Of a stretch of DNA of 64,000 bases, positions 1 through 31,056 are shown one piece after another. Positions within the stretch are counted from its first letter, which is position 1. The number at the start of each line of letters is the position of its first letter. The position numbers and the translations under genes are program-made. The stretch is from Mariprofundus sp. GTDB taxonomy: Bacteria; Pseudomonadota; Zetaproteobacteria; Mariprofundales; Mariprofundaceae. Below the pieces are notes generated by a model. It worked only from the letters and a program-made list of their open reading frames with translations. It made no database searches and was not told the origin of the DNA. The stretch is from contig JAJFLH010000027.1 of assembly GCA_021772775.1 (NCBI GenBank), positions 1 through 64,000 of the forward strand, read 5' to 3'.

Positions 1-809
1 ATGTCCAGAGCTGCAGCGGATGCAACTGCAATGCCATATGTCTGCATATCATACAGTACATTCTTAGGGCTACCGCCTGGGAATACGCGATCCCAAATTG
101 CAGCAATAGGGTGAGCCGCAATTGGCATGTTGATGTTGGCATTCACATAATAGATACGAACACGTTCACCCGGTTTGGATTGTAGTACGCCACCGGTTGA
201 TTTTGGATCGTGTACGGGATCGTATTTGAATGGTTTGCCGTTAATCAGTGCATTGGTCCAGCCTTTGTTTTCCAGCAGGTCGGCGACGGAAGATCCCGCA
301 GGGAAGAGCTGTGACTGAATCAATACATATTCGCGATCAGGTTTAGGGAATTGTTTAGTATATTTCTTGGGATCAACAATGATTACGCCATACATTCCGC
401 GCGCAATATGTTCAACCATTGCGCTTGCACCACAGTGATACATATAGATACCGGCACGTTTAGGTGTGAATTTAAAGTGCTTGCTTGAACCCGGTTTGAC
501 CGGTGCGAACTCTTCTAACACATGTACTTCAGCGGCGTGAAAATCCATGGAGTGAGAGTTTTTGTTTTTCTTAGGATTGATCAGAGTGAAGTCCACGGTG
601 TCACCCTCTGTAACACGTACAACTTTACCTGGAATTGCACCATCAAAGGTCCATGCTGGATATTTGTCACCGGCATTGTTGATGACGACTTCGTTTTCCA
701 TGGCAGTCATGGTGACAGCAACCGTTTTAGCGAGTGCTGCTGGAACGCTTACACCGACAACAATAGCTGCTGCGGCACATGAGATCATGCTTGTTTTTAA
801 TAGATTCAT
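1..809 (-). CDS. nirK: Copper-containing nitrite reductase (NirK), C-terminus beyond window edge
   Basis: Periplasmic two-cupredoxin-domain enzyme that reduces nitrite to NO; 269 residues are visible and the 3' end lies outside the window. A signal peptide covers about residues 1-27. Copper ligands fit the NirK pattern: type 1 His86, Cys126, His134 and Met139; type 2 His91 and His125; Asp89 sits in the catalytic DFH segment, and His233 is placed like the second catalytic His. The Cys-to-His spacing is one residue shorter than in the classical Alcaligenes enzyme and is followed by HIARGMYG, as in the NirK class seen in nitrifiers and other lithotrophs. The ATG at 809 follows a strong GAGGAGA ribosome site. 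Two cytochrome c genes lie directly upstream on the same strand and are probable electron donors. The last type 2 His cannot be seen. Confidence 0.88.
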   Translation of the reverse strand, partial: MNLLKTSMISCAAAAIVVGVSVPAALAKTVAVTMTAMENEVVINNAGDKYPAWTFDGAIPGKVVRVTEGDTVDFTLINPKKNKNSHSMDFHAAEVHVLEEFAPVKPGSSKHFKFTPKRAGIYMYHCGASAMVEHIARGMYGVIIVDPKKYTKQFPKPDREYVLIQSQLFPAGSSVADLLENKGWTNALINGKPFKYDPVHDPKSTGGVLQSKPGERVRIYYVNANINMPIAAHPIAAIWDRVFPGGSPKNVLYDMQTYGIAVASAAALD

Positions 810-903: not shown

Positions 904-1266
904 TCATTTGGTTTGGTTGTCGCACTGACATAGCTTGCGAAGATGTTTAACGAGATCATCGATCTCATTGTCTGTAAGTGTATCTGCCCAAGGGGGCATG
1001 AGAGATGACTTGCTTATGGCAAGCCCACCCTCTTTAATCACTTTAAACAGCTCGCTGTCGGTGCGGGTGCTCATCGCTTTTGTATCAGTGTGATCTCGTG
1101 GCTGTACAGACATGTCCTGAATATTCAGCCCCATACCTTGACCGGCCATGCCATGACACTGCATACAGTAGGTACGGTAATTATCTTTTGCAGATTCGGC
1201 ACTTGCGCTGCTTATCTGTAGCAGGGATGTCATGATCAGTATGATTATAAAGCAGCAGTTATTCAT
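904..1266 (-). CDS. Periplasmic monohaem cytochrome c
   Basis: A 120-residue class I cytochrome c with a signal peptide (about residues 1-23) and one haem site CMQCH at residues 34-38. A Met-Pro-Pro segment near residue 91 probably supplies the axial Met. It overlaps the end of the upstream dihaem cytochrome gene by 8 bases and precedes nirK by about 95 bases, so the three genes look like one transcript. Inference: it carries electrons to NirK. The last residues contain an extra Cys pair (LCQC) that does not form a haem motif. Confidence 0.85.
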   Translation of the reverse strand: MNNCCFIIILIMTSLLQISSASAESAKDNYRTYCMQCHGMAGQGMGLNIQDMSVQPRDHTDTKAMSTRTDSELFKVIKEGGLAISKSSLMPPWADTLTDNEIDDLVKHLRKLCQCDNQTK

Positions 1267-1981
1267 TGTAGCTCTTCTTGGATAGATTGATCATATAATT
1301 CACCAGCTTTTGTATATTATTATCTGGCAGGTGAGCATTGGGCATCCAAACCTTGGTATCCCATGCTTGGGGGCTGCGGATATAGCTTAACATGAATTCC
1401 GCTTTTAGACGCGTACCAGCTGTATAAACCTCAGGGCCAGACAAACCTCCAAAGCCGGGTTCGATCTGATGGCAGGCCATGCAGCCGTAAATTTTATCAA
1501 ACATCATTTCGCCAAGAGGCCCTGGGGATAGTTTCGGATCATGTTTTTCATTCTGAATAAGTGATCTGTTCTCTTTGAGAGTGGCAAGGGTAGCTGCAAT
1601 GCTCTTGGCATCACTGCTATTGAGTTGGAGGTGTTGTGATAAGCTGGATGTATCAACCATGTTTCGTTTTGGGCCGGGTTTAATGTGGTTCATATAGAAC
1701 ATACCAGCCGGGCGTATGCGTTTTGGATTTTGCAACCATGTTTCAAGCCATTCCTGGCGATATTTATTGCCTGCATAAAATAGATCAGGCCCTTTACGTT
1801 GCCAGAGCGCAGCCAGTGTACTCGGTGCAGGGCCTGTTAATGCGTGACAAGAAGAGCAGTTGTGTTTGTTTAACAGATCCAGGTCACCGGCATGGGCGGG
1901 GCTTGCTGTGACAAGGCTGAATAGTGCCAGAGTTAGCAGTAGCCATTTACCCAATGGAGTTGTCATATTTAGGCTATTCAT
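1259..1981 (-). CDS. Periplasmic dihaem cytochrome c
   Basis: 240 residues with a signal peptide (about 1-31) and two haem sites, CSSCH at 42-46 and CMACH at 167-171, each in its own cytochrome c-like domain. It is the first gene of the cytochrome-cytochrome-nirK set. Met1 is preceded only by a weak purine stretch, and Met6 is an alternative start. A near-perfect 19-bp palindrome lies 112-130 bases upstream. The role as electron relay from the bc1 complex or quinol oxidation toward NirK is inferred from context. Confidence 0.82.
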   Translation of the reverse strand: MNSLNMTTPLGKWLLLTLALFSLVTASPAHAGDLDLLNKHNCSSCHALTGPAPSTLAALWQRKGPDLFYAGNKYRQEWLETWLQNPKRIRPAGMFYMNHIKPGPKRNMVDTSSLSQHLQLNSSDAKSIAATLATLKENRSLIQNEKHDPKLSPGPLGEMMFDKIYGCMACHQIEPGFGGLSGPEVYTAGTRLKAEFMLSYIRSPQAWDTKVWMPNAHLPDNNIQKLVNYMINLSKKSYNE

Positions 1982-2092: not shown

Positions 2093-2111
2093 GTGCGGCA
2101 AATTGTCGCAC
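2093..2111. promoter_or_regulatory. Palindromic operator-like site 1 (nirK operon side)
   Basis: GTGCGGCAAATTGTCGCAC is palindromic with a single mismatch pair. It lies 112-130 bases upstream of the dihaem cytochrome gene. Close copies occur before exbB and near 31.04 kb. The GCGnC...GnCGC layout resembles sites reported for the RegA/PrrA/RoxR family of redox response regulators; the identity of the binding protein is inference. Confidence 0.6.
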
Positions 2112-2668
2112 TCAGGTGGCTAAAAAAGCATATTGCGGAGGGCTATTCGTTCATCGGCCATCGTTTGCCATGGGAGGTTGAGAAGGCGTTATCACCTTTC
2201 CCAGTACTAGTCGGAGCACAATTCTTGATGTATAAAGTGAAGTAGTCGTCCAAAACCGACAGGTACTTGAGAGTCAGTCAGTTTCTTTCTTCTGGAGGCT
2301 ATTTTGTGATGTCCACATATTTTGGTGAATTATAACTCGTGCCCGATACTTAAGCATTTTTCCGAGGTGTTCACAGCAATTTGAGCCAAATTAATGCGAG
2401 TGCCGGGCAAATAAAGGTAGAAGCTGGCGTGGGCCATGCAGAAGGTAGAGTACCAACAGTAGGTGCTTTAGGCGACGCAGGTGCTGTCGCCGAGTAGATT
2501 TTTCTCATAGTCCGTTAGAGAGCGTTGCTTCCATCTACTGAGCTAGAGATTAACTTGAACGGTGTAGATGAAGTACGATGGTAATACCTCCGAAAAGCCA
2601 TATGCCTTGGTATGCACCGACGCGCGCTAAGGGTAAGTTGCTTAAAAGTCCGACAATACACTGATAAT

Positions 2669-2699: not shown

Positions 2700-2731
2700 T
2701 GCGACAATTCGCCGCGCGACAATTTGCCTAA
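2700..2731. promoter_or_regulatory. Tandem operator-like sites 2 and 3 (exbB side)
   Basis: Two overlapping copies of the 2093 motif with 15-base phasing: TGCGACAATTCGCCGCG starting at 2700 and CGCGACAATTTGCC starting at 2715. They lie about 60-90 bases before the exbB start, a usual position for control of a promoter. The second copy keeps only one full half-site. Confidence 0.6.
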
Positions 2732-2790
2732 TTTTAATAGCACTATTTTCTCATACGCTTCGTAGCCAGTTTTTGATGGAGAGGTGAGCT

Positions 2791-3420
2791 TTGGAGTTAA
2801 CCACGCTGATAGAAAAAGGTGGGCCGGTGATGTGGGTGCTGATTGGCTACTCTGTTGTAGCCGTCACCATAGTGCTGGAGCGGCTCATTCAATTGCAGCT
2901 GCTACCAAGTGTGAGCAGTGATTTTGATGCGTTATATCAGGTCAATGGTAAACGTATGTCTCCGGAATCAGCAATTGCCATTGGTGTGAAGCAGGCTGCA
3001 TCTGAGGGAGTAAAAGATCTGGCGCGTGTTGCATCTCGTATTGGCAGTGATCAGTTGGCTCGAATGGAGAGTGGATTACGCACACTAGCGTGGCTGGGTA
3101 ATACAGCGCCATTATTGGGCTTATTCGGGACTATTACAGGTATGATAAAAGCTTTTCAGGTGATTGAGAGTGCTGGTGGTAAAGTGGATGCGATGGTGCT
3201 TGCAGGAGGTATCTGGGAGGCGATGGTGACCACTGGTGCAGGGTTGGCCGTTGCGATCCCTGTACTGTTTCTTCTGCATTTCCTGGAGGGGTTGGTGGAT
3301 CGTCGCGCCAAGTCGATGCAGCGGGTGGCATCGATGGTGATTGAGAAGCTGCCACATGCGCCAGAGAACAGTGTGAATGACCAGATTAAACACGGGAGAA
3401 GTCTGGCCCATGCAATTTGA
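2791..3420 (+). CDS. exbB: ExbB/TolQ/MotA-family proton channel
   Basis: 209 residues with three membrane segments (about 12-30, 101-123, 147-167) and the MotA/TolQ/ExbB core motif around TAPLLGLFGTITG at 106-117. It uses the proton gradient to energise TonB. The start is TTG at 2791 with GAGGTGAG just upstream; the nearby ATG at 2776 is followed at once by a stop. It is the first gene of a compact run exbB-exbD-tonB-receptor, so this energising complex is dedicated to the neighbouring receptor. Confidence 0.88.
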   Translation: MELTTLIEKGGPVMWVLIGYSVVAVTIVLERLIQLQLLPSVSSDFDALYQVNGKRMSPESAIAIGVKQAASEGVKDLARVASRIGSDQLARMESGLRTLAWLGNTAPLLGLFGTITGMIKAFQVIESAGGKVDAMVLAGGIWEAMVTTGAGLAVAIPVLFLLHFLEGLVDRRAKSMQRVASMVIEKLPHAPENSVNDQIKHGRSLAHAI

Positions 3421-3820
3421 GGGTACACGCCGAAGTGGTCAGGCTCCCAATCTGACACCGCTAATCGACATTGTTTTCCTGCTGCTGGTATTTTTTATGC
3501 TCACAGCTCACTTCGTTAAAGACGAAGGGATCCCCATTGAGCTGCCGGAAGCCCTTAGTGCGATCTCACTTGAAGATAAGCAACCACTTGAAATTGCGAT
3601 CACAGGATCCGGCATGATCAGCATAGCAGGAGAGCAGGTTTCAGCTAATGCACTATCCAAGCAGCTCTCCGCACTACTTGCCAAAAGAGATGAGAAGCGG
3701 GTGGTGATTCGCGGCGATAGCGAGGTGAGCCTAGGTATCTCAGTGAAGCTTATTGATGCTGCTCGTCAGGCTGGAGCAAGCGGAGTAGATATTGTGACAG
3801 AGCAGCCAGATAGATCTTAA
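3410..3820 (+). CDS. exbD: ExbD/TolR-family protein
   Basis: 136 residues with one N-terminal membrane helix containing the family Asp in PLIDIVFLLLVFF, followed by a periplasmic domain. The chosen ATG at 3410 has a GGGAG ribosome site and overlaps the end of exbB by 11 bases, indicating translational coupling. It forms the proton-driven motor with ExbB and TonB. Confidence 0.88.
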   Translation: MQFEGTRRSGQAPNLTPLIDIVFLLLVFFMLTAHFVKDEGIPIELPEALSAISLEDKQPLEIAITGSGMISIAGEQVSANALSKQLSALLAKRDEKRVVIRGDSEVSLGISVKLIDAARQAGASGVDIVTEQPDRS

Positions 3821-3821
3821 A

Positions 3822-4547
3822 GTGAGTGCAAATGTTTTGTCATCAGATCCAAGCTTTCACTTCCCAATGCGTTATGGGGCGTTTGCCGTGTCGCTGCTAT
3901 TACATGGTTTGATCTTTGCAGATTATGGAGGACAAGTAGCTGCAATGTCACCGCAACCGATTCAATCAGTAACACGTTTGAGTTTTCTTGCTCCCCCACC
4001 TGAAGCTGTCGTGGTTCCTGAAGTGATTGAGCCGGTGATTCCTGAGCTGCAACCGGAAACGCTGGAAATCAAGCCGGTAGAGAAAGTAGAGCATAAAGTT
4101 GTGAAAAAAAAGGCTAAAGAGATGGTGGTTGAGCCGGTTCAGGCAGTGGTTCAAGAAGTGCTTCAGGAGCAGCTCATTCAACCGGATCCTGTGGCAGTCG
4201 TGGCGCAGGCAGTAGCTGTTTCTGCTGTGCAACCACAAGTTGATGAAGGGTTGATCAAGCGTGAAACAGAACGCTATCTGACTGAAGTGATGGCTCATAT
4301 TGAAAAGCATAAATGGTATCCAAAGGCGGCCAGGCGCAGAGGTGTTGAAGGCGAGGTACATGTCCGTTTTGTCTTGCATCATGATGGGTCTACGGAAGGA
4401 CTTCGTGTGGAAAGTGGGCCTTCAATGCTCGTGGCTGCAGCCAGAAAGGCAGTTGAGAAGGCGATGCCAATGCCTTCCCCTCCGGCTGGTGTTCATTGCC
4501 CGCTGGAGTGCGAATTCCGAATGCGTTTCAACCTGAATGCATCCTGA
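3822..4547 (+). CDS. tonB: TonB energy-transducing protein
   Basis: 241 residues. The N-terminal membrane helix (about 18-33) carries Ser24-xxx-His28, the SxxxH pattern that contacts ExbB/ExbD. A Val/Pro/Glu/Lys-rich spacer (about 55-140) spans the periplasm, and a C-terminal TonB domain (about 145-240) includes WYPKAARRRG. The start is GTG at 3822, one base after the exbD stop, so translation is probably coupled. No strong independent ribosome site is visible. Confidence 0.88.
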   Translation: MSANVLSSDPSFHFPMRYGAFAVSLLLHGLIFADYGGQVAAMSPQPIQSVTRLSFLAPPPEAVVVPEVIEPVIPELQPETLEIKPVEKVEHKVVKKKAKEMVVEPVQAVVQEVLQEQLIQPDPVAVVAQAVAVSAVQPQVDEGLIKRETERYLTEVMAHIEKHKWYPKAARRRGVEGEVHVRFVLHHDGSTEGLRVESGPSMLVAAARKAVEKAMPMPSPPAGVHCPLECEFRMRFNLNAS

Positions 4548-4577
4548 AGGTGAAGATATCAAAGAGTGGGAGAAGAG

Positions 4578-6791
4578 ATGAATCCAAAAACAAAAAGCAG
4601 TGTGACAGGGGCATTGGGTCTGTCCGTCCTGTTGATGATGCCAAGTATAAGCAGTGCCGCAGATATGGGACTTATGCAGGTGGACTCGACTACGATTGAT
4701 GATCGTTTTGAATCCAAGCGCGGGGAGCCCTCCAATATATCGGTGATATCCGGAACAAAGGTGGAGAAGGCCCATGCCGAAAATATCAAACAGATTCTCG
4801 ATGCGATTCCTGGTGTCACAGCGGAACTGCAGAGCCAAGACTCGTTAAAAATCCATATTCGAGGTGTGGAAAATCAACGCTTTATGGGTGAAAAGCCGGG
4901 TGTCGCTGTGGTCATTGATGGGGTGCCGGTATTCGAGCGCACGGGCCGGGTGAATATCAATATGGATGACATCGAGTCGATCAAGGTGATTAAGGGCGGA
5001 GCCTCTTATCTCTTTGGTGATGATGCTTTGGCCGGAGCGGTGATTATTACCACCAAACGAGGTGCTAAAATGGCTGGAGGGCAGGTTTCAGGAGAAGCAG
5101 GCAGCTTTGGTTCCGCGCGTGGTTTGGCACGAGCAGGATTTGCTGGTGATTCTGTTTCAGGGCATGTGCAGCTCAGTCGCCGGGAAGCGAATAGTTATTA
5201 TTTTCAAGGAGGCTACAAAGCCGATTATTTGAATGGAAAATTGCAAGGCTATCTATCAGATACGAGTGATCTCACCTTCGGCTGGGAGGTGGCCAAGCGC
5301 TTCAAGGATAGTCACGGCACGGTAACAGGTGTTACGCAGGCAGCGCTTGATTCGACCAGTGTGGCTGGCCGTGATTACGCTCGAAACTATAACGTGGATC
5401 TTGGTAAATATTACCTCACCTATGCCAACGATATTTCGGAAAGCAGTAACCTGATGCTCAACCTTTACCAGTTTGGTGATCATACAAACTTCTGGACGGC
5501 CCCGATTCGCACCGATGTGAACCGTTTACCGGTTATCGATGTGAATGCGTACCAGAACAGTAATGACTACAAACAGACTCAGCGTGGTGTGAAGGGTGAA
5601 TGGCGTAATGGTGGAGAAAGACTCGCCTGGATGAGTGCATTTGATTTGCGCGATAATAGTTATAAAAACAAGGTTTCTATCCTGCAGGACTTTCGAGTCA
5701 GTGCATTCAGTCCAATCACAACAGCAGGAACAGTCATAGCTGATAATAAAACGAAAGAGCGCATGTATGCCGCCTACGGAGAGTTAAAGTTCAGTCTGAC
5801 TGATGCGCTTACTGCGACATTGAACGGGCGCTATGATCACATCAAGCTCAGTTATGAAGATTATTTGCCAGCAGCTCCGGCCGCGAGTCTTTCCAAAAGT
5901 TTCAATGTGGGTTCATGGCGTGGAGGTATCAATTATGACTTCAACGATTCAGTTTCATTGTACTCTAATGTTTCGACTGGTTTCCGTGCTCCAACGATTA
6001 ATCAGCTCTTTGCGGGCACGATTACGCTAAATGGCAATGTTGCAGCCAATCCCAATCTAAAACCTGAGCAAGCCTATAACTATGAAATTGGGTTGCGCGG
6101 CAGGCTAGATGTCGTTGGTGGCGTTGAATGGGATATCGCTGCATTCCAAATAGACCGCAAGAATTTTATTCTCAATGTGGCAGGTCAATATGCTAATCCG
6201 CTCAGAGGTGTTACGGATCAATATCAGAATATTGGTGGTAGTCGTAACCGTGGTGTCGAATTGGCTGTGAAGAGCGATCAGGATCAGATGTTTTCGATGG
6301 ATGTCGCTTACACATTCCTGGATGCGAAATTCACCCAGTATGACAATTTTAACCTGCTGCTTGGTAACCGGTTCAGTCCGGCACCGGGCGCGAGTACCAT
6401 CGTTCCCTACAATAATAGTGGTAATGTCGTGCCACGCGTACCCAAACACAAACTTTTCCTGGCTGCGCGCCTGAAACCATTTTCCGGTTTTACGCTGACC
6501 GGTGAAATGAATGCCCAAGGGTCCTATTTTGCTGATGAGATCAATCAGGAAAAGATAGGTGGTCATGCACTGTTTGATCTGATCGCCAACTATGATTTTG
6601 CTACCGGAGCCAATAATAGGGTGAAGTGGGCACTGTTTACGCGCATGGATAATGTGCTGGATAGGCAAGTCTACAACACGGCTCGCGGCTATACCGACAG
6701 CAATGGCGACTTTATCTACAACGCCGAAGACCTCTCTATCGTGGTCAATCCCGGACGAAGCTGGAGCGCCGGTATATCGGCAACATTTTAA
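4578..6791 (+). CDS. TonB-dependent outer-membrane receptor
   Basis: 737 residues: signal peptide (about 1-28), plug domain with IPGV, IRGV and VVIDGVPV motifs, then a 22-strand-type barrel ending in a terminal Phe. The ATG at 4578 has GGGAGA upstream and is preferred to the GTG at 4566. It imports a scarce ligand across the outer membrane using the ExbBD-TonB genes just before it. The ligand is not visible in the sequence. Context (copper nitrite reductase upstream, His-rich and LTxxQ-type periplasmic proteins downstream) suggests a metal such as copper or an iron chelate; this is inference. Confidence 0.88.
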   Translation: MNPKTKSSVTGALGLSVLLMMPSISSAADMGLMQVDSTTIDDRFESKRGEPSNISVISGTKVEKAHAENIKQILDAIPGVTAELQSQDSLKIHIRGVENQRFMGEKPGVAVVIDGVPVFERTGRVNINMDDIESIKVIKGGASYLFGDDALAGAVIITTKRGAKMAGGQVSGEAGSFGSARGLARAGFAGDSVSGHVQLSRREANSYYFQGGYKADYLNGKLQGYLSDTSDLTFGWEVAKRFKDSHGTVTGVTQAALDSTSVAGRDYARNYNVDLGKYYLTYANDISESSNLMLNLYQFGDHTNFWTAPIRTDVNRLPVIDVNAYQNSNDYKQTQRGVKGEWRNGGERLAWMSAFDLRDNSYKNKVSILQDFRVSAFSPITTAGTVIADNKTKERMYAAYGELKFSLTDALTATLNGRYDHIKLSYEDYLPAAPAASLSKSFNVGSWRGGINYDFNDSVSLYSNVSTGFRAPTINQLFAGTITLNGNVAANPNLKPEQAYNYEIGLRGRLDVVGGVEWDIAAFQIDRKNFILNVAGQYANPLRGVTDQYQNIGGSRNRGVELAVKSDQDQMFSMDVAYTFLDAKFTQYDNFNLLLGNRFSPAPGASTIVPYNNSGNVVPRVPKHKLFLAARLKPFSGFTLTGEMNAQGSYFADEINQEKIGGHALFDLIANYDFATGANNRVKWALFTRMDNVLDRQVYNTARGYTDSNGDFIYNAEDLSIVVNPGRSWSAGISATF

Positions 6792-6817
6792 TGCAAGTTA
6801 AATCAATGGAGAAGTAT

Positions 6818-7309
6818 ATGAATAAACATCTAATTATAGCCACTGCAGCTATGTTGCTTGCCATGCCAACACAGGCTACAGCAACAGATAGAGCTGTCAG
6901 CTCTTATTCGACAGAGGGCAAGGTATCTACAAGTTATAAAACATCGAGCCATTACAAGATACCGGGAACAAGTCCGAGCTATATTCGTAATATTTTGAAA
7001 AAAGCAGCTCGAATTGGCTTGACCGATAAGCAGTTCAAAGAGCTTGGTGGCTTGCTGGTTGAGGCGGAAACAGGAGCTGCAGAAGCGCATGCGCAGGCAG
7101 AGCTTACCGTGGCCAAATTCCGGACTCGGCTGCACAGTGGTCATTTAAGTGACAAGGAGATTCATACATACACTTCACGTATGGGTGAGCTTCGATCTGC
7201 TAAATTGCAGGCCAACTTGATGGCATCGGTGAGAGCTTCACGTCTACTGACTGCTGAGCAGAAATCAAAACTGTATGCCGGAAAAAAGTCAGTGGGCTTT
7301 AAAAAGTGA
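6818..7309 (+). CDS. LTxxQ-type (Spy/CpxP-like) periplasmic protein
   Basis: 163 residues with a signal peptide (about 1-23) and a helical mature part. Two LTxxQ-like motifs, IGLTDKQ and LLTAEQK, stand at the start and end of the helical region, as in the Spy/CpxP/CnrX fold of periplasmic chaperones and metal sensors. The ATG at 6818 follows GGAGAAG and is preferred to the ATG at 6791 that overlaps the receptor stop. Its place between a TonB receptor and a membrane ferredoxin suggests a metal-sensing or chaperone role; unproven. Confidence 0.65.
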   Translation: MNKHLIIATAAMLLAMPTQATATDRAVSSYSTEGKVSTSYKTSSHYKIPGTSPSYIRNILKKAARIGLTDKQFKELGGLLVEAETGAAEAHAQAELTVAKFRTRLHSGHLSDKEIHTYTSRMGELRSAKLQANLMASVRASRLLTAEQKSKLYAGKKSVGFKK

Positions 7310-8100
7310 AAGCTGGAGTATGGATGGGGGCCACGCTTGTCGTGGCTCTCTTCAGCTTCACTGCGCAAGCCGCAATGGTCTGGTCACCAGTGCCTGTGGA
7401 GAAGGGGCATGGTGGTCATGATCGTCGTGCAGGCAAGTCCTATCTGCTAGAGAACGGTGATGGAGCGAATCTTCACCTCATCAGTCCGAAGCTTGAATCA
7501 AAAGAGATTAGTGCAATATCAGGTCGGGTAAGTGTAAAACCGATGGGCATGGATAATTACCATGCTTTAGTCGCGATCAGAAATATTGATCACAGACACG
7601 AATCTGCCATTCGTTACGTCTACATGTTCGGTAAACCGTCGAAAGAGTCGCCTTCGCGTTTGATGGGGTATGAAAAATCGGCTCTGGAGATTGAACCTGC
7701 TCCGTATGCCAGAGAGCACTGGCGTTATTACTCCAGTACAGATGCTCAATTCATCATTCGCTTTAAAGGTGAAGTGATCGCAGGTGCTGAAGTAATCATG
7801 CAGACATCCAATGGAACACGAAGCACTTTTACCAGTGATGCTGAAGGGCGACTGACTGTGCCGCTTCCTGAAGACTTTTCTGACGTGAAGGCGGGGCGCA
7901 GGGCAAACCGTGCCGCCGAATTTATGCTGACTACAGAGCGTGAGGATGGTGCTGATATCTACATCACTTCGTTCTCAGCCGGATATCACGTTAACCCGAA
8001 CCACTGGCAGTCCACAGAGCTTGCTCTTGCAGTCGTTGCTGGAGGCATGCTGCTTGGTGGGTTGATCACCTGGCGTAGTCGTCGCCGTAAGGAGAAATAA
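7306..8100 (+). CDS. Unknown periplasmic membrane-anchored protein, DUF4198-like
   Basis: 264 residues: N-terminal signal sequence, a periplasmic region with a His-rich patch near the mature N-terminus (HGGHD), a beta-rich segment resembling carboxypeptidase-regulatory/DUF4198 folds (GAEVIMQTSNG...DAEGRLTVPLP), and a C-terminal membrane helix (about 237-255) followed by a basic tail. The start is GTG overlapping the previous stop (GTGA). An ATG at 7324 with CTGGAG upstream is a credible alternative. DUF4198-type proteins accompany nickel/cobalt and other metal transporters, which fits the operon, but the family call is tentative. Confidence 0.55.
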   Translation: MKAGVWMGATLVVALFSFTAQAAMVWSPVPVEKGHGGHDRRAGKSYLLENGDGANLHLISPKLESKEISAISGRVSVKPMGMDNYHALVAIRNIDHRHESAIRYVYMFGKPSKESPSRLMGYEKSALEIEPAPYAREHWRYYSSTDAQFIIRFKGEVIAGAEVIMQTSNGTRSTFTSDAEGRLTVPLPEDFSDVKAGRRANRAAEFMLTTEREDGADIYITSFSAGYHVNPNHWQSTELALAVVAGGMLLGGLITWRSRRRKEK

Positions 8101-8101
8101 T

Positions 8102-9133
8102 ATGCCTGTCTGGAAAAATCTTTCAGTGATCCGAAAAGTGGTGCAGCTGCTGGCGTTTCTGTTCCTGGTTTACGGGTCGGTATTTGTTGGGTTCTATTCG
8201 GCGGATAAATTATCTGGCGCTTTTCCAGTGCTCGCCTGTGCATATGATGCCAAAACAGCGGATTACTGTGTTCTGATTCCGCTGCAGCATCAATTCGGGC
8301 ATCGCTTGGGGCCGGCACTTTCAGCGGGGATGTTCAGTTTCAGTCTGATCCTGCCTATTCTCACGACACTGGGTACATTCCTGATTCTATTTGTAGTGCT
8401 GAACAAGGCATTTTGTGGCTGGCTCTGCCCTCTCGGATTTTTCCAGGAGGTGCTTGGCATGATTGGGCAGAAGCTTCGCTTAAAGCGCACTGAGTCGCTG
8501 GATCCGGAACTGCTTGATCGTATAAGGCCAGCCAAATGGCTGATGTTGGGACTGTTGGTAGTGCTCTTCCCTCTGGCATCGGGACTTGGTTTTGTTGGCA
8601 GTGAACTGGGGGATCCATTCTGTAAGATTTGTCCGAGCCGAATTCTCACTTCACTGGCTGCGGGCCAGTTGAATCAGCTCTATATCGATACATCTTCGCT
8701 CGGCTATATGATTCTGTCGATCCTTGCCGATACACTGTTTGGCCTGATTCTGGTTCTCTCACTCACCATGCGCCAGCCATTTTGCCGTATATGCCCATTG
8801 CTAGCGATGCATGCGTTGTTCAGAAAAGTTGGTTTGGTAAAGCTGGTGAAAAACTATACAAGCCGTTGTGATAAGTGTGGTCTATGTGCGAAGGCTTGTC
8901 CGATGGATATTCGTGAGATTCATACATCCAAAGAGAAAGATATTCTCTTTCCTGACTGCACACTGTGCGGCCGCTGTGTGGAGTTCTGCCCTGATAAAGG
9001 AGTGATGGCATTGAAGTACGTCGTGATTCCTATCAAGGTCTCTGATCCGCAATATTTCAAAGAACGTAACAGAGCACAGAAGAAGTGGGAGGGTAAACAG
9101 AAACCATCCCGTCGTGTGAAAAAGGCTTCGTGA
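8102..9133 (+). CDS. NapH/NosR-like membrane polyferredoxin
   Basis: 343 residues with several membrane helices and cysteine motifs typical of NapH/NosR/CcoG-type proteins: CGWLCPLG, CKICPSR and CRICP in the membrane part, then two 4Fe-4S ferredoxin motifs (CDKCGLCAKACP and CTLCGRCVEFCP) near residues 258-297. It would pass electrons across or along the inner membrane. ATG at 8102 follows AAGGAG. It is tightly linked to the SafE-like gene (stop and start share a base). In nitrous-oxide and nitrate respiration such proteins mature or reduce periplasmic metalloenzymes; here a link with metal import is inferred. Confidence 0.82.
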   Translation: MPVWKNLSVIRKVVQLLAFLFLVYGSVFVGFYSADKLSGAFPVLACAYDAKTADYCVLIPLQHQFGHRLGPALSAGMFSFSLILPILTTLGTFLILFVVLNKAFCGWLCPLGFFQEVLGMIGQKLRLKRTESLDPELLDRIRPAKWLMLGLLVVLFPLASGLGFVGSELGDPFCKICPSRILTSLAAGQLNQLYIDTSSLGYMILSILADTLFGLILVLSLTMRQPFCRICPLLAMHALFRKVGLVKLVKNYTSRCDKCGLCAKACPMDIREIHTSKEKDILFPDCTLCGRCVEFCPDKGVMALKYVVIPIKVSDPQYFKERNRAQKKWEGKQKPSRRVKKAS

Positions 9134-9777
9134 TGGAGGTTCTTTTCTCATCCATGTTGGCTACATTTATCATCGGCCTCTCATTCGGGGCTGGTGCATG
9201 CATGTTTACCTGTATTCCAACGCTCGGAGTCATGTTGTTGGCTCAGGATATTGATGCCAAAGAGACGTCACTGCAAACGCTGCGCTTTAATATTGGGCGA
9301 ATGAGTGCCTATGCACTACTTGCAGCTGTTTCCGGGTTGCTTGGTGCTTCACTGGTAGGGTTTCTCGATCTGAATTACGCTAATCTCATTTTTGCCGCGA
9401 TGCTGCTCTTCTCTGCCATTCTCTTATGGCGCAAAGGTAAGGTGGTTGGCTGCTCCTCAATGGGCCAGAAAAAGAGATTTAGAGCAGGCCTGCTTGGGAT
9501 GGGGTTTGCTATGGGACTTCGGCCATGTGCACCTCTTGCCGGTGTTATGGCTGCATCGGCTTTAACGGGTTCAGCCTCATATGGTCTGTTACTTGGCCTC
9601 TCTTTTGGGGCCGGTGCAATTGTGATTCCACAGCTTGTATTTGGATATGGGTTAGGAAGCGCTGGCAAAGAGTTGCGTTCACAGCTGCGCGATAAGCAGC
9701 AGCAGTTGGCAAGGATAGGAGCTTCTGTGTTGGCTATCGTGGGTGTCGGGGTCGGCGGCGGTTGGATATCTCTGTAG
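9133..9777 (+). CDS. SafE/DsbD-like integral membrane protein
   Basis: 214 residues, about six membrane helices, with the ACMFTCIPTLG and LRPCAPLAGVM segments seen in the sulfite exporter TauE/SafE and DsbD/CcdA transmembrane families. The ATG at 9133 shares its A with the stop of the ferredoxin gene. Cysteines in the two membrane motifs could carry thiol electrons as in CcdA, or support metal/thiol transport. It is the last gene of the exbB operon. Confidence 0.75.
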   Translation: MEVLFSSMLATFIIGLSFGAGACMFTCIPTLGVMLLAQDIDAKETSLQTLRFNIGRMSAYALLAAVSGLLGASLVGFLDLNYANLIFAAMLLFSAILLWRKGKVVGCSSMGQKKRFRAGLLGMGFAMGLRPCAPLAGVMAASALTGSASYGLLLGLSFGAGAIVIPQLVFGYGLGSAGKELRSQLRDKQQQLARIGASVLAIVGVGVGGGWISL

Positions 9778-14754: not shown

Positions 14755-15195
14755 ATGTTGAAACTTGCCCAGCATATGCGCAGCTCTTGCCGACTGATGG
14801 TCGGCCTGTTTACGTTGCAATTTTTTGCAGCTGGCTTCTGTCTGATTGCACCTGCGGCGCATGCGTCGGATATGCCTATGGCATCTTCAATGGGTTCTCA
14901 GGCCTCCTCTTCTCACGCTTCATTAAATTTCGATAGTGCTTGTGATCAAGCCGCGATGGGCGAATTCAAACATGTAGATCATGAGATGGCGGCATGTGCC
15001 CATTGTGATCTGCCCAATGAGTTGGTTTCCAATGCTGTGTCGAATTTTAATATTGATTTTCCAGTTGTCGTGTTGCTTACGGCAACGATTGATTTGGCTC
15101 TGCCACTAACTACTGATTTAAGCGTATCTCCGGCCACTGGGCCACCAGAAAGCTCTCCCCGCCGTTTTCATACCAACCAACGTATTTTAATCTGA
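14755..15195 (+). CDS. Secreted Met/His/Cys-containing protein of the copper island
   Basis: 146 residues. N-terminal signal peptide (about 1-37, ending AAHA), then Met- and Ser-rich sequence and a His/Cys cluster (HVDHEMAACAHCD) with a CxxC pair, possible copper ligands. A hydrophobic stretch (about 101-120) near the C-terminus may contact the membrane. Short proteins of this kind (DUF2946-like) often precede heavy-metal efflux operons. The family assignment is tentative; the location directly before the CusCBA-type genes supports a copper role. Confidence 0.6.
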   Translation: MLKLAQHMRSSCRLMVGLFTLQFFAAGFCLIAPAAHASDMPMASSMGSQASSSHASLNFDSACDQAAMGEFKHVDHEMAACAHCDLPNELVSNAVSNFNIDFPVVVLLTATIDLALPLTTDLSVSPATGPPESSPRRFHTNQRILI

Positions 15196-15276
15196 TTTAA
15201 ACCTGCTGTTACGTCACATCGAGAGATGTGATTTCTATTGTGCACTTTGCAATCGTAATCGTTACAGGAGGCTTCG

Positions 15277-16593
15277 TTGTCTTATATCATTAAATCCAGT
15301 TATCTCATTTTTATTTTCATGTCGTTGGCATGGCATGCCGTATTGGCTGACGAAGTTGTTTTAAATGCAGATCAGGCAGTGGCATTAGCACTCTCCCATA
15401 ATCAGGCTCTCGCCGTTCAGGATGCACATGCCAGATCAGTGCGGGCAGTGGCACCACAAGTAGGCAGTTTGCCCGGTCCTGTTCTGTCGATGCGGGCGCT
15501 GAATCTGCCAGTGGATAGTTTTTCAAGCTCACAAGAAAACATGACTCAGCTGCAATTGGGCATCAGTCAGGCTATCCCATTTCCGGGGAAACTTTCTTTA
15601 CGCGCATCAGCAGCGGATCTGCTGGCGGATGCGGCGATGTTGGATAGTGATGAATTCCGACTTCAGCTCAGTAGTCGTGTACAGGGTGTCTGGTGGAATC
15701 TATTTTATCTTGAGCGTGCGACTGAGACGGTGGAGCGAAATAAACAGCTGTTGCGTCAATTCATCCGCATTGCCGAAACCAAATACAAGGTGGGCAAGGG
15801 TTTGCAACAGGATGTGTTGCTGGCGCAACTAGAGCTCTCCAAATTACTCAATGTTGGTATCAATTTAAAAGCGGCACGTAAAAAAGAGGCGACCAGTTTG
15901 AATACGCTGCTTAATCGTTTGGCTTATGCGAAGATTATATTGCCGCAAAAGGTGAATGAATCACTGCCGGATCTGGCCGGGGAAGTGTTGCTGGGCAAAC
16001 AAGCATTGGTATCTCGTCCGCTACTCTCCCAACGAGGTAAATATATTGAGTCGGCTCAAACGCAAGTGCAGTTGGCAGAAAAAGATTATTACCCTGATTT
16101 TAATCTTGGGGCGGCATATGGGCTGCGTAGCGGAATTAATCCAGCCAACAGTCGCAGCAGAGCGGATTTGGTCAGTGTGCAACTGAGTATGACTATGCCC
16201 TTCTTTACCGGAAGCAGGCAGAGCCATCAGCTGGATCAGCGCAGAGCGGAATTGGCACGCTCTCAGTTTTCATATCAGGATGCTAAAGAAGCTGTTTTAG
16301 CTGAAGTGTCGCAAGCACTGGCAGATTATGAAAAGGCCAGAGAGCAAGGGCTGTTGTTTAAAACAGGGATTATTCCGCAAGCGCATCAAACAGTGGCTTC
16401 GATGCTGGCTGCTTATCAGGTTAATAAAGTTGATTTCCTGAATCTCGTGCGCGCCCAGGTGACGCTCTATAATTATGAAACCCAATACTGGAAGTCATTG
16501 GCTGAGGCGAATCAGAGCCTTGCCCGCCTTGATGCTGCGATTGGGATGGCTGTTACAAGCATAAGCGCTCAAAGGGAGCTCTCTCATGAATAA
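15277..16593 (+). CDS. TolC-family outer-membrane channel of Cus-type efflux
   Basis: 438 residues: signal peptide, two outer-membrane efflux protein repeats, long coiled-coil helices. The start is TTG at 15277 with AGGAGG five bases upstream. It overlaps the start of the CusB-like gene by 8 bases. It serves as the outer-membrane exit duct of the tripartite heavy-metal pump encoded with the next two genes. Confidence 0.85.
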   Translation: MSYIIKSSYLIFIFMSLAWHAVLADEVVLNADQAVALALSHNQALAVQDAHARSVRAVAPQVGSLPGPVLSMRALNLPVDSFSSSQENMTQLQLGISQAIPFPGKLSLRASAADLLADAAMLDSDEFRLQLSSRVQGVWWNLFYLERATETVERNKQLLRQFIRIAETKYKVGKGLQQDVLLAQLELSKLLNVGINLKAARKKEATSLNTLLNRLAYAKIILPQKVNESLPDLAGEVLLGKQALVSRPLLSQRGKYIESAQTQVQLAEKDYYPDFNLGAAYGLRSGINPANSRSRADLVSVQLSMTMPFFTGSRQSHQLDQRRAELARSQFSYQDAKEAVLAEVSQALADYEKAREQGLLFKTGIIPQAHQTVASMLAAYQVNKVDFLNLVRAQVTLYNYETQYWKSLAEANQSLARLDAAIGMAVTSISAQRELSHE

Positions 16594-18004
16594 GCAAATT
16601 TGGTTCACTGCAATTGTTATGTTGCTCATTGGTGGTACAGGGGGTTACTGGTTGGCTGAGCAGCAAACGTCAGTGATGCCAATGCCGACAAAGGCGGAGC
16701 AGAAGGCAGAAACGAGGGCTAAAATATTGTTTTATCGTAATCCTATGAATCCGGCGATCACCTCACCTGTCGCTACTAAGGATGAGATGGGTATGGATTA
16801 TATTCCAGTTTATGTTGATGTCGCTGATGTTTCATCGGACTTAAGCGGAACAGTTACGATCAATGCGACCGTAGTTCAAAATATTGGTGTGCGTACTATC
16901 GCAGCTACCTTAACCACCTTGTCGCGCACTGTGCGCACAGTGGGGCGAGTCACTTTTGATGAAAAGCGTGTGACCCGTCTGCATCCCAAATACGATGGCT
17001 GGGTGGAGAAAATGTTCATCGATAGAACGGGTGAGAAGGTGAGCAAGAACACCATGTTAATGTCGATTTATGCGCCGCAACTTGTGGCGACACAGGAGGA
17101 GTATCTGCTGGCCCTAAACAATGCGCAGATATTGAAGGATAGCACTTTCCCTGATGTGCGTGATGGCGCCAAGAGTCTACTTCGTTCCGCCCATGAGCGT
17201 TTGCAGCTACTTGATATGCCCCCGCATCAAATTCAAAAGTTGAAAGAGAGGCGCAAGGTGATGAAAGCGGTGCATATTCACTCTCCTTTCGATGGTATTG
17301 TGATGAATATTGGAGCGCGTGAGGGGCAGCGCATTACGCCGGATACAGAGCTTTATATGGTGGCTGATCTTTCGCGTGTTTGGGTGATTGTGGATCTGTA
17401 TGAAGATGATCTGCCGTGGGTGCGTGAAGGTGATGCGGCAGAGATGCAGGTGGCGGGTATTCCGGGGCGAAAGTTTAGCGGCGTGGTCAGTTATATATAT
17501 CCCTATCTGGAGGCCAAAACGCGTACGGTTAAAATGCGTTTGGAGTTTGATAATCCTGAGCTGGCGCTTAAACCTGATATGTTTGCCAATGTGACGGTGA
17601 AAGCTGGAAAACAGATTGATGCAGTGATTGTGCCATCGGAAGCGATTGTGCGTACCGGTGAACATGAGCAGGTCTATGTGCAACGCAGTCCCGGTAAATT
17701 TGAGCCGCGTAGAGTGGTGGTTGGTATTGATTCCGATGGCCAAGCACAAATTCTCGAAGGCCTTGAGGCCGGCGATATTGTTGTCAGATCCAGCCAGTTC
17801 CTGATTGATTCAGAGTCAAAACTCAAAGAAGCCACTGCCAAAATGCTGGAAGCAACACAGGCAACACATGCTCCTGCCGAAATGGACATGAAGGACATGA
17901 ATATGTCGGATATGAAACTCTCGAATGATATAGATATGGGGGACCATTCAGCAGGAGAGCCGAAGGGGATGAGCAAAGGTCATATGAACATGGAGGGAAT
18001 GTGA
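16586..18004 (+). CDS. cusB: CusB-type periplasmic adaptor with metal-binding ends
   Basis: 472 residues. After an N-terminal anchor, residues about 46-77 form the heavy-metal-binding domain seen in CusB relatives (YRNPMNP...DEMGMDYIPVY), followed by lipoyl, hairpin and beta-barrel adaptor domains. The C-terminal 45 residues are extremely rich in Met, His and Asp (for example MDMKDMNMSDMK), a CusF-like or methionine copper-binding tail. It bridges the inner-membrane pump and TolC-type channel and hands Cu(I)/Ag(I) to CusA. Confidence 0.88.
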   Translation: MNKQIWFTAIVMLLIGGTGGYWLAEQQTSVMPMPTKAEQKAETRAKILFYRNPMNPAITSPVATKDEMGMDYIPVYVDVADVSSDLSGTVTINATVVQNIGVRTIAATLTTLSRTVRTVGRVTFDEKRVTRLHPKYDGWVEKMFIDRTGEKVSKNTMLMSIYAPQLVATQEEYLLALNNAQILKDSTFPDVRDGAKSLLRSAHERLQLLDMPPHQIQKLKERRKVMKAVHIHSPFDGIVMNIGAREGQRITPDTELYMVADLSRVWVIVDLYEDDLPWVREGDAAEMQVAGIPGRKFSGVVSYIYPYLEAKTRTVKMRLEFDNPELALKPDMFANVTVKAGKQIDAVIVPSEAIVRTGEHEQVYVQRSPGKFEPRRVVVGIDSDGQAQILEGLEAGDIVVRSSQFLIDSESKLKEATAKMLEATQATHAPAEMDMKDMNMSDMKLSNDIDMGDHSAGEPKGMSKGHMNMEGM

Positions 18005-18035
18005 TGGCGTACCCTTGTAGCTCGCAGGTCTTCAA

Positions 18036-21000
18036 ATGATTCGCGCGCTTATTGATGGTTCGATTAAGAATCGTTTCCTGATTCTTATTGCAACTCTGCT
18101 TATTGCTCTAGCCGGTGTTCAGGCGATGAAGTCTATTCCGCTGGATGCCATTCCTGATCTCTCTGATGTGCAGGTGATTGTGTTTACTGAATTCGCCGGA
18201 CAAGCGCCTCAGGTGGTGGAAGATCAGGTTACCTATCCGATGACCACAGCGATGTTATCGGTGCCAAAAACCAAGGTAGTACGCGGTTACTCCTTCTTTG
18301 GTTTTTCGATGGTCTATGTCGTCTTTGAAGATGGCACCGACATGTACTGGGCGCGTACGCGGGTACTAGAATATCTCAACTCAGCCTCTGACCGCCTACC
18401 TGCAGGTGTGTCTCCTAAGCTGGGGCCTGATGCAACTGGTGTAGGCTGGGTCTATGAATATGCCCTGATCGATAAAACAGGTAGTTATGATTTGGCGCAG
18501 TTGCGCTCCATTCAGGATTGGTATCTGCGTTATCCGTTACAGACCGTGAAAGGTGTATCGGAGGTCGCTTCGATTGGTGGATTTGTAAAACAGTATCAGG
18601 TTGATCTTAATCCCGATGCGCTGCTGGCTTATAATATTCCCTTGGGCAAGATTAAAAGGGCGATTCAGCGCTCCAATAATGATGTTGGTGGCCGTTTGGT
18701 AGAGATGGGGGAGACCGAGTACATGGTGCGTGGGCTTGGTTATATCAAGAGCTTACATGATCTGGAGATGATTCCCATTGATGTGGATCTGCAGGGCACA
18801 CCGATCTTTTTGAAGCAGGTGGCCAATATTCACCTGGGGCCGGAGTTGAGGCGTGGATTAACAGATCTGAATGGTCAGGGTGAAGTCGCAGGTGGCATTG
18901 TCATTATGCGTTATGGCGAAAATGCATTGGCGACGATCAAACGTGTGCGCAAAAAAATAGAAGAGTTGAAAGCAGGGCTGCCAGTCGGTGTTGAGATCGT
19001 ACCCGTTTATGATCGTGGTGATCTGATCGAACGTGCGGTAGGTAATCTGACTGAAAAACTGATTGAAGAGTCCATTGTGGTGGCCCTGATCTGCCTGCTA
19101 TTTTTAATGCATGTGCGTAGTGCGTTGGTGGCAATCATCGCGCTTCCAGCCGGAATTTTGATCGCTTTTTTAATCATGAGCTGGCAGGGGTTGTCAGCAA
19201 ATATCATGTCATTGGGTGGCATTGCCATTGCCATTGGCGCGATGATTGATGGGGCAATCGTGATGATTGAAAATGCCCATAAACATTTGGAACGCTTGCA
19301 TGAAAAAAAGAACAGAGCCGTTATTCCCGCAGAGGCGGGAATCCAGCCTGTAGCAGAAAAAACAGAAGCTCTGGATTCCCGTTTTCACGGGAATGACGAT
19401 GCAACACTAACTTCAGCCGAGCGCTGGGCGGCGATAGGAGATGCCTCCAAAGAGGTGGGGCCAGCGCTGTTTTTCAGTCTGTTGATTATTACCGTCTCCT
19501 TTATTCCTGTGTTTACTTTGCAAGCTCAGGAAGGGCGATTGTTTGCGCCGCTCGCTTTTACCAAAACCTATGCCATGGCGGCGGCAGCATTGCTGGCTGT
19601 TACGCTGGTTCCGGTGCTGATGGGGCTGCTTATTCGTGGCAAGATACCGTGTGAAGAAGCTAACCCGCTAAATGTAGGCTTGAAGGCTTTGCATGCACCG
19701 CTGCTCGGTTGTGCTATGCGCTGGCGCACGATTACGCTGATTGGGGCACTACTTCTGCTGGCTGCTACAGTTTACCCGATTATGAAAACGGGTTCGGAAT
19801 TTATGCCGCCATTGGATGAAGGTGATATCCTCTATATGCCCACAACCTATCCCGGTATCTCGATCACCAAAGCCAAAGAGCTGTTGCAGCAGACTGATAA
19901 AATCCTGACCACCTTTCCTGAAGTGGAGAGTGTGTTCGGTAAAGTTGGACGTGCTGAAACGGCAACCGATCCGGCACCACTCTCTATGCTGGAGACGACT
20001 ATTCGCTTGAAACCGAAAGAGCAATGGCCTGACCCGAATAAAACAAGCAAACAGCTGATGCGAGAGATGGATGATGCCATTCAGTTTCCGGGTTTGGCCA
20101 ATGCCTGGACCTATCCGATTAAAACGCGCATTGATATGTTATCGACCGGCATCAAAACGCCGATTGGGATCAAAGTATCCGGTGCTGATTTGAGCGTGCT
20201 GGAGAAGGTGGCGGGTGATATTTCACAAGTTTTGGCTGGACATCCCGACACACTGTCTGCTTTTGCAGATAAAGCGGCCGGTGGTTACTACCTTGATTTC
20301 GATATCAAGCGTGAAGAGGCCGCCCGCTATGGGCTTACAGTCGGTGATGTGCAGGATGTGATTCAGTCGGCCATTGGCGGCATGAATGTCAGTGAGACGG
20401 TGGAAGGGTTGGAGCGTTATCCAATTAATATCCGCTATCCGCGTGAGCTGCGTGACAATATGCAGTCGTTGAAACGGGTGCTGATTTCGACACCGACCGG
20501 TGCCCAGATTCCACTGTCATTGGTCGCTGATCTTGCATTGCGGCGTGGCCCTCCATCCATTAAAACTGAAAATGCTACGCCAAATGCCTGGGTCTATATT
20601 GATATCACCACCTCCGATATCGGTGCTTATGTTGCTGTTGCGAAACAGCTGGTGGCTGATCAGGTGAACATACCTTCGGGGTACTCCTTGAACTGGTCCG
20701 GGCAATTTGAATATATGCAACGCGCGGCGGAGCGACTGAGTATGGTAATTCCGTTAACGCTACTGACCATATTTCTGCTGCTCTATTTTAACTTCCGAAA
20801 TTTCACAGCACCGCTGGTGGTGATGTTATCGATTCCGTTTGCTTTGATCGGTGGTTTTTGGCTGGTCTGGTTTATGGGCTTTCATATGTCGGTGGCAGTG
20901 GCGGTTGGTTTTATCGCGCTCGCCGGTGTTTCAGCAGAGATTGGTGTGTTGGTGATGACTTTTATTGATCAGGCGATATTAAAGGCGAGGGGTGAGCTGT

Positions 21001-21290: not shown

Positions 21291-21766
21291 AACAGATGAT
21301 TATATTCATGGCGTTTTTGATGCTGTTGGTTCAAACGCACAGTGCACAGGCCAATGATCATCCAATGGATATGCATGCGACACATATCTATGGAGATCTG
21401 CATAATGAGATGCAAAAGAGCCATGTGGATGACGTATCTGAGGTGTTTTTAGTCAAACAGCATATAGATGGCTATGAAGTTCGCTTTCATGTCATGAAGC
21501 CGACGAGAGATATGCAGCATGGTGGCGACCATAACTTTATGGTGAGAATTGAAAAAGATGGTAAAGCTTTGAGTGATCTACTGGTCAATTCAAAAGTGAG
21601 CCATGCCAATGGGAAGTCTGAATCAAAAATGATGATGAGAATGGGCGTTTGGTACATGGCAGGTTATGATTTGGATCATGGTGGCAAACATCAGCTTATG
21701 GTGTTGTTTAAAACAGCTGATGGCACCAAACACTTTGGTGGCGTGACTTTTCCAGATGACAAGTAG
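21287..21766 (+). CDS. Secreted Met/His-rich protein of the copper operon
   Basis: 159 residues: signal peptide (about 1-22), then HPMDMHATHIYGD and a beta-rich domain with many Met and His (KMMMRMGVWYMAG, DLDHGGKH). GTG start overlaps the cusA stop (GTGA) with AAGGAGAAGAG upstream, so it is coupled to the pump. No family recognised; a periplasmic copper-binding accessory role is inferred from residue content and context. Confidence 0.7.
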   Translation: MKQMIIFMAFLMLLVQTHSAQANDHPMDMHATHIYGDLHNEMQKSHVDDVSEVFLVKQHIDGYEVRFHVMKPTRDMQHGGDHNFMVRIEKDGKALSDLLVNSKVSHANGKSESKMMMRMGVWYMAGYDLDHGGKHQLMVLFKTADGTKHFGGVTFPDDK

Positions 21767-21836
21767 AGCTTATTATTTAGCTTGCGGCTGAAATATAGGT
21801 CTTGGGAATAGAGTAGAGAAAGAATAAGGAGTTCAT

Positions 21837-22295: not shown

Positions 22296-22322
22296 CAGCA
22301 AGGCCTAGGCCTTATTTCTATT

Positions 22323-30968: not shown

Positions 30969-31038
30969 GCTCTCTCCGTTTTTCTGCTGTTTTATCATGT
31001 CAGCCATTCATTATGTTTTGCCAAGGGAGGGCCCACAA

Positions 31039-31056
31039 TGTGGCAAATTGTCGCAG
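31039..31056. promoter_or_regulatory. Palindromic operator-like site 4 (cytochrome fusion gene)
   Basis: TGTGGCAAATTGTCGCAG shares 16 of 17 positions with the core of the site at 2093-2111. It lies about 71-88 bases before the start of the cytochrome c fusion gene on the minus strand, in the space after the DUF1302-type gene. Confidence 0.6.

Follow-up and report, generated by a model that had tools for sequence, protein, structure and literature searches.

A candidate TonB-powered copper acquisition operon with its own periplasmic reduction step in Mariprofundus

Why are the genes of a TonB-dependent uptake system followed, in a single operon, by those of a membrane polyferredoxin and a SafE-type protein? 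The question is raised by positions 2791-9777 of a 64,000-nucleotide stretch of Mariprofundus sp., an iron-oxidising marine bacterium (GCA_021772775.1, contig JAJFLH010000027.1, positions 1 to 64,000 of the forward strand), called the window here. Analysis of its open reading frames (ORFs) gave eight collinear plus-strand ORFs with junctions of -44 to +18 bp, in the order exbB, exbD, tonB, receptor, LTxxQ-like, DUF4198-like, polyferredoxin and SafE/DsbD_2 (Table 1). We regard it as somewhat probable that this operon encodes a system dedicated to copper acquisition, powered by TonB and including a reduction step of its own in the periplasm. The set from exbB to SafE is real, as the ORFs, the Pfam matches and its recurrence elsewhere agree. 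The names given in a preliminary description to ExbB, ExbD, TonB, the receptor, the polyferredoxin and SafE were recovered by Pfam; the LTXXQ name was not, with a match below the cutoff, and the DUF4198-like name, for which Pfam gave no match above the cutoff, is supported by the AlphaFold and Foldseek fold.

A search for the same gene order in other genomes found it exactly in seven other Zetaproteobacterial loci, and its core in dozens more genomes. The anchored DUF4198-fold protein is encoded in 14 of 78 Zetaproteobacterial genomes, the polyferredoxin in the same ones. In one of the seven, L025, a frameshift interrupts the receptor gene; one further Zetaproteobacterial locus is cut at a contig end, and another (L021) is without the LTxxQ-like gene, which is also missing outside the Zetaproteobacteria. 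In more distant Zetaproteobacterial genera, exbB-exbD-tonB is placed after the core, not before it. In the wider phylum 17 non-Zetaproteobacterial genomes match, and when one genome for each species was scanned, at least 79 named loci were obtained, a lower bound. The hosts include Thiodiazotropha, Sedimenticola, the Solemya velum symbiont, Neptuniibacter, Amphritea, Methylomonas, Sulfuricurvum, Denitromonas, Azonexus, Parazoarcus, Gallionella, Sideroxydans, Ferrigenium, Thiobacillus, Competibacteraceae and Magnetococcales. Gene order was counted in 90 loci from many Proteobacteria and Campylobacterota, with testable cases as denominators. The DUF4198-fold gene stands directly before the polyferredoxin gene in 87/88 loci and SafE directly after it in 79/85, a receptor gene lies upstream in 75/86, and at least two of tonB, exbB and exbD occur within 9 kb in 38/57. 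The core of receptor, DUF4198-fold protein, polyferredoxin and SafE is thus kept far beyond the Zetaproteobacteria, which bears out the proposed link between outer membrane import and a membrane electron-transfer module. Because the exact order recurs in seven other loci and the core in dozens of genomes, the arrangement is not due to chance.

The receptors of the module fall in two groups, A8 (about 50% identical across classes) and A7 (more mixed), while the inner-membrane part is unchanged. We read this constancy beside a varying receptor as pointing to one pathway with exchangeable receptors. In five loci (L114, L137, L143, L078 and L089), a BNR/sialidase-like protein and a TlpA-like thioredoxin, together with receptor-tonB-exbB-exbD, adjoin the module; the BNR/sialidase-like protein of L143 has an HTCECCR motif.

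The polyferredoxin has membrane helices predicted by AlphaFold at residues 7-29, 80-100, 144-162 and 200-222, and 16 cysteines that are invariant in 49 sequences. Eight of these belong to the C-terminal ferredoxin domain; by topology, C105, C109, C228 and C231 are on the same side as this domain, predicted to be cytoplasmic, and C46, C56, C174 and C177 are on the predicted periplasmic side. Since the 16 cysteines fall in four quartets, they suggest a chain of clusters across the membrane. The protein resembles the NapH/NosR-type membrane ferredoxins in its four helices, its CxxxCP motif and its two C-terminal [4Fe-4S] motifs, and it fits the NapH pattern of two CP-type motifs and two [4Fe-4S] ferredoxin motifs. 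However, it differs from them in its gene neighbourhood and in four extra invariant cysteines, predicted to be periplasmic: the NapH of E. coli (25% identical) shares 12 of the 16 and is without C46, C56, C174 and C177. The best NCBIfam match is NapH (TIGR02163, 69.7 bits against a cutoff of 213), and a comparison of the polyferredoxin model with the PDB gave no relatives.

In SafE, C24, C28 and C133 with their adjoining prolines are invariant in an alignment of 22 sequences. On contig C18 of the same genome, a CcoG-type polyferredoxin, a CcoH-like protein, a CcoI-like copper ATPase and a DsbD_2 paralogue are encoded together, and by analogy this cluster is a precedent for the use of a polyferredoxin with a DsbD_2 protein in copper handling. 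According to PMC13038864, the reduction of Cu(II) by CcoG takes place in the cytoplasm. The cluster, which belongs to copper loading of the cbb3 oxidase, is like the module in that genes for a polyferredoxin and for a DsbD_2 membrane protein lie side by side in one cluster; unlike the module, it has neither a TonB receptor nor a DUF4198 protein, and CcoG forms a family of its own. The polyferredoxin of the module is NapH-like and has neither the CcoG architecture nor the cco-cluster position, CcoG-type proteins being encoded elsewhere in the genome.

The anchored protein has a His-rich N-terminus, a C-terminal membrane helix (237-263) and an invariant REH motif (His138), and it has no cysteine in the window. 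Pfam gave no DUF4198 match and a sequence search of the PDB gave nothing, so that only the fold search was informative: its AlphaFold model (pLDDT 90.6) matched best Zcp, bound to Zn, Co or Cu (Foldseek E 1.8e-9, TM about 0.5), and also a Ni-bound DUF4198 protein (E 8.6e-7). The predicted structure places the protein in the metal-binding DUF4198/Zcp fold; a look-up of open-licence papers on Zcp gave nothing of relevance. It is like these proteins in its predicted fold, periplasmic position and His-rich character, and unlike them in its C-terminal anchor, its identity of about 11-14% and its failure to match DUF4198 in Pfam.

The window receptor, of an unnamed family (class 1), has the plug signature STTIDDRFESKRGEPSNI / NQRFMGEKPGVAVVIDGVPVFERTGRVNI, with Met107 and His250 invariant in an alignment of 23 sequences. 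It reaches no NCBIfam cutoff, gives no qualifying match to TIGR01778 (OprC/NosA) and, when compared with known receptors, joins no named group. The nearest solved structure by profile is PqqU/YncD. By profile, the 732-residue chain 9rvq, probably CrtA, was matched by class 2 receptors only and not by class 1 at the same threshold. A haem receptor was considered and rejected: FRAP and NPNL are present, but no His stands between them, and the haem and siderophore models are all below cutoff.

What, then, is the cargo? The preliminary description had proposed a metal or its chelate; a metal is very likely, and we infer that copper is the best-supported one. DUF2946 (CruR) is a proven family of copper-sensing upstream ORFs, or uORFs (PMC9426467). 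It is rare (1/78 Zetaproteobacterial and 1/14 control genomes), and CruR/DUF2946 is co-directional with the module in eight loci of the alpha-, beta- and gammaproteobacteria (L096, L100, L101, L103, L121, L141, L152 and L153); in five of these the CruR ORF ends 48-149 bp before the module receptor, four of the five being above the Pfam cutoff. The copper site of OprC consists of CxxxM and HxM (PMC8610252), and second receptors with both motifs adjoin the module in L018 and L020 (Mariprofundus), L073 and L145 (Magnetococcales), L106 and L111. In L018 and L020 this OprC-type receptor stands between RegBA and exbB, and OprC is the only solved relative of that of L018. In addition, a homologue of the copper-storage protein Csp1 is found in the L125 cluster (E 2.5e-21), with others in L122, L145 and L154. 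Copper is favoured because of these uORFs, OprC-type neighbours and Csp1 homologues, and because of a box shared with OprC-like receptors. OprC/NosA itself resembles the module as a TonB-dependent copper uptake system, with OprC-type receptors beside the module in six loci and a box common to both in Mariprofundaceae; it differs in that the CxxxM-HxM site is absent from the module receptor and OprC has no known reductase operon.

Whole or half boxes lie upstream of exbB in all 10 Zetaproteobacterial loci examined. In Mariprofundaceae, the box GCGACAATTTGCC, with a palindromic extension, is found ahead of exbB, the module receptor, RegB and OprC-like receptors, and 22 of 28 near-matches in 210 kb are within 300 bp upstream of those starts and in the same orientation. 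There are only four occurrences of the pattern YGCGRCRNNNTGNCGC in the 3.12-Mb genome, and two of these fall between the divergent cytochrome-NirK-like operon and exbB, a region of 809 bp. The RegA/PrrA site at ccoN is GCGACCGTTCGTCGC (table in PMC5359404); the box resembles such sites, and RegA would be the protein that binds it. RegB/RegA-like genes immediately precede the operon in several Mariprofundaceae and lie near the module in some beta- and gammaproteobacteria; their best NCBIfam matches are ActS/PrrB and ActR/PrrA, and the RegBA type is by far the best family, though below the equivalog cutoffs. In the window genome an intact RegBA pair is found on contig C24, beside an OprC-like receptor, and the decayed regB-regA remnant upstream of exbB is 80.7% identical over 57 bp to the intact regA of L018 (blastn, E 1e-7). 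The C24 receptor (L174, 6913-9120) is preceded by the same box as exbB; it scores 194 bits with TIGR01778, below the cutoff, and GPNWM replaces CxxxM. A cytochrome-containing gene (30072-31007) may also belong to the regulon: a GCGACAATTTGCC box stands about 35 bp upstream of it, at window 31042-31054 (minus strand).

In the mechanism that we propose, the receptor would import copper, probably as a chelate, powered by its own TonB-ExbB-ExbD, and the anchored DUF4198-fold protein would bind the metal or its complex in the periplasm. Electrons would pass from the cytoplasm through the ferredoxin clusters to the cytoplasmic-face and then the periplasmic-face cysteine quartet of the polyferredoxin, a putative reductase that would convert Cu(II) to Cu(I) and so release copper from its ligand. 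SafE/DsbD_2 would give thiol electrons or pass copper on, a role that its paralogue next to CcoG and CcoI may also have, and the copper would be delivered to respiratory cuproproteins. Control would be by a RegBA/PrrBA-type redox system in the Zetaproteobacteria and by CruR copper uORFs in several other lineages. In a divergent polyferredoxin branch (L076, 7504-8784; L149, L151, L153 and L155), a double-cubane-type 2-hydroxyacyl-CoA dehydratase-like protein is encoded next to the polyferredoxin, and some of these loci also have a BadF-type ATPase. The double-cubane protein is a possible ATP-driven electron donor, and this branch may carry another cargo. A bolder view, which we put forward tentatively and think rather unlikely to hold in full, is that of a widespread, previously undescribed class of metal acquisition coupled to TonB. 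In it, a membrane Fe-S wire would have its end in a four-cysteine centre in the periplasm (either a fourth cluster or a metal site) that reduces imported Cu(II) chelates, with low-potential electrons from the ATP-driven double-cubane protein in the branch of L076, L149, L151, L153 and L155.

Several findings weigh against copper acquisition as set out here. The window genome has no CruR (DUF2946); the window receptor is without the OprC site, clusters with no named receptor and has nearest solved relatives that transport PQQ. Copper markers are found in about 17 of about 100 loci, and most loci are therefore silent on the metal. The periplasmic placement of C46, C56, C174 and C177 is based on predicted helices and charge bias, and the RegA/RegB homologues score 204-212 bits against a cutoff of 250 and 247 bits against 350. 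The metals bound by DUF4198 proteins also include Ni, Zn and Co. Corrinoid/iron-type transport genes and a double-cubane protein are found near the divergent members L151 and L155, and the cargo may therefore vary between branches. Import of Ni, Co, Zn or a corrinoid, with reduction of that cargo by the polyferredoxin, would accord with these last points, with the Zn-, Co-, Cu- and Ni-bound solved relatives of the fold, with class 2 receptors that score with B12/PQQ receptor models, and with the CbiK-like protein and B12/iron-type ABC genes beside L151 and L155. It is nevertheless unlikely: the CruR uORFs, the CxxxM-HxM neighbours and Csp1 indicate copper from independent lineages and, to our knowledge, Ni(II) and Zn(II) need no periplasmic reductase. 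Import and reduction of ferric chelates, in the manner of FoxB-type reductases, by iron oxidisers and other lithotrophs seems quite unlikely, even though the module receptors score highest with general siderophore and haem models (all below cutoff), many hosts oxidise iron (Mariprofundus, Gallionella, Sideroxydans and Ferrigenium) and the polyferredoxin FtrD is part of an iron system. Fur regulation was rejected, the best upstream Fur-box match being 12/19 against a shuffled mean of 10.9; the operon has no FtrA/B/C genes and copper-specific neighbours are found instead; and the receptor has no haem-ligand His between FRAP and NPNL.

The remaining alternatives separate the electron-transfer genes from the receptor or give them one local client. 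A cytochrome or thiol maturation device (Ccm/Dsb-like) that merely shares an operon with the receptor would fit a SafE of the CcdA/DsbD_2 family with conserved redox-type Cys-Pro motifs, as well as the TlpA-like thioredoxins of several relatives. However, the four genes of the core, from receptor to SafE, remain linked in different classes and phyla with either of two receptor families, which favours one pathway and makes such a device highly improbable. The preliminary description had the module feed the divergent NirK operon. NirK is a copper enzyme, and in the window genome the same rare box is found with both operons, within a single intergenic region of 809 bp; as two of the four boxes lie there, the operons may be co-regulated, and a local link is possible. 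As a general role, service to NirK was rejected for lack of co-occurrence and on neighbourhood, and we hold this model to be very unlikely. Strict NirK occurs in 8 of the 78 Zetaproteobacterial genomes and in 0 of the 14 with the module, and NirK-like matches of at least 140 bits occur in 3/14 genomes with the module against 11/64 without. In relatives, RegBA or an OprC-type receptor, and not nirK, adjoins the module, and the adjacency seen here is not conserved. The NirK-like gene of the window is itself below the NirK cutoff, a score that comes from a partial protein, the gene being truncated. A link to nitrogen fixation, many hosts being diazotrophs, was likewise rejected, with nifH above the cutoff in 2 of the 78 genomes and in neither case with the module.

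Table 1. Features of the operon, its upstream region and its neighbours (window coordinates).
Feature	Position	Strand	Evidence or remark
exbB, proton-channel subunit	2791..3420	+	Pfam MotA_ExbB E 2.1e-26; position constant in all complete Zetaproteobacterial loci
exbD	3377..3820	+	Pfam ExbD E 9e-30; true start possibly further 3'
tonB	3822..4547	+	Pfam TonB_C E 6.5e-14
TonB-dependent receptor, unnamed family (class 1)	4566..6791	+	Pfam barrel E 4e-54, plug E 2e-19
LTxxQ-like small periplasmic protein	6791..7309	+	PF07813 19.0 bits, under the 24.3 cutoff; Zetaproteobacteria only
DUF4198-fold periplasmic protein (predicted), C-terminal membrane anchor	7306..8100	+	AlphaFold and Foldseek; gene adjacency
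Membrane polyferredoxin, four transmembrane helices	8102..9133	+	Pfam Fer4_5/Fer4_10; 16 invariant Cys
SafE/DsbD_2 (PF13386) membrane protein	9130..9777	+	Pfam DsbD_2 E 7.6e-20, 72.1 bits against cutoff 24.9
Palindromic and direct-repeat box GCGACAATTCGCCGCGCGACAATTTGCCTAATTTT, RegA/PrrA-like	2701..2735	+	75-90 bp upstream of exbB
Decayed regB-regA remnant (LSQINASAGQIKVEAG; LGMHRRAL)	2375..2640	+	tblastn 28.5 bits against shuffled maximum 23.1
Second box TGCGGCAAATTGTCGCA	2094..2110	-	128 bp upstream of the cytochrome-NirK-like operon
Cytochrome c	1259..1981	-	Pfam Cytochrome_CBB3 E 2.5e-7
Cytochrome c	904..1266	-	Pfam Cytochrome_CBB3 E 1.9e-11
NirK-like multicopper protein	3..809	-	3' end lost at contig edge; TIGR02376 140.5 bits against cutoff 296.3
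Small CxxC leader-like ORF, CopL/CruR-like in looks	14755-15195		Efflux island
CusA	18036-21290		Efflux island; TIGR00914 1245 bits
DUF411-like protein	21837-22295		Efflux island
Copper P-type ATPase	22323-24584		Efflux island

A copper/silver efflux island lies 5 kb downstream of the operon (window 14755-24584) and also encodes a TolC-type protein and a Met-rich CusB-like protein. At about 19320-19400 the cusA frame holds VIPAEAGIQ...LDSRFHGNDD, which has the appearance of a dispersed repeat element inserted in frame. On the minus strand, positions 61133-61460 carry six CRISPR-DR4 repeats (Rfam RF01317).

Among known systems, the closest published idea, by analogy, is the CruR-CrtA-CrpH operon of Bordetella pertussis (PMC9426467, PMC12914433, PMC13038864), whose putative copper reductase is of the PepSY_TM type (PMC12914433, PMC13038864); these last two papers mention no ferredoxin, DUF4198 or SafE partner. 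Receptors of the CrtA cluster are marked by a conserved ligand site that includes the essential His358. Both systems set a copper-regulated receptor beside an inner-membrane putative copper reductase, at times with their own TonB-ExbBD, and a CruR uORF heads some members of each. In contrast, the putative reductase of the module is an iron-sulfur polyferredoxin with DsbD_2, in place of a haem PepSY_TM protein; the module also has a DUF4198-fold protein, and its receptor is of another family. By Pfam, the annotated operon genes of the window include no PepSY gene, the polyferredoxin being in that place. FtrABCD is an iron transporter in which FtrD is a polyferredoxin. It resembles the module as a polyferredoxin serving metal uptake, and differs in that the module has an outer membrane receptor and no Ftr1 permease, P19 or cupredoxin; Pfam found none of these, nor FtrA/B/C genes, in the window operon. 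A literature search for the module's combination, in open-licence papers, returned no description, in agreement with the earlier remark that no system with the full set was known, and the gene set has apparently not been described before.

In the literature searched, Gram-negative copper uptake is an open question, with only OprC/NosA, methanobactin receptors and CrtA characterised. The hosts of the module are lithotrophs, denitrifiers, methanotrophs and symbionts. If the proposed function is true, the module would be a second, independent solution beside CrtA-CrpH, in which outer membrane uptake is coupled to an Fe-S membrane reductase. Through it, periplasmic copper reduction would become directly testable, and a polyferredoxin family whose nearest curated model is NapH would gain a candidate function.

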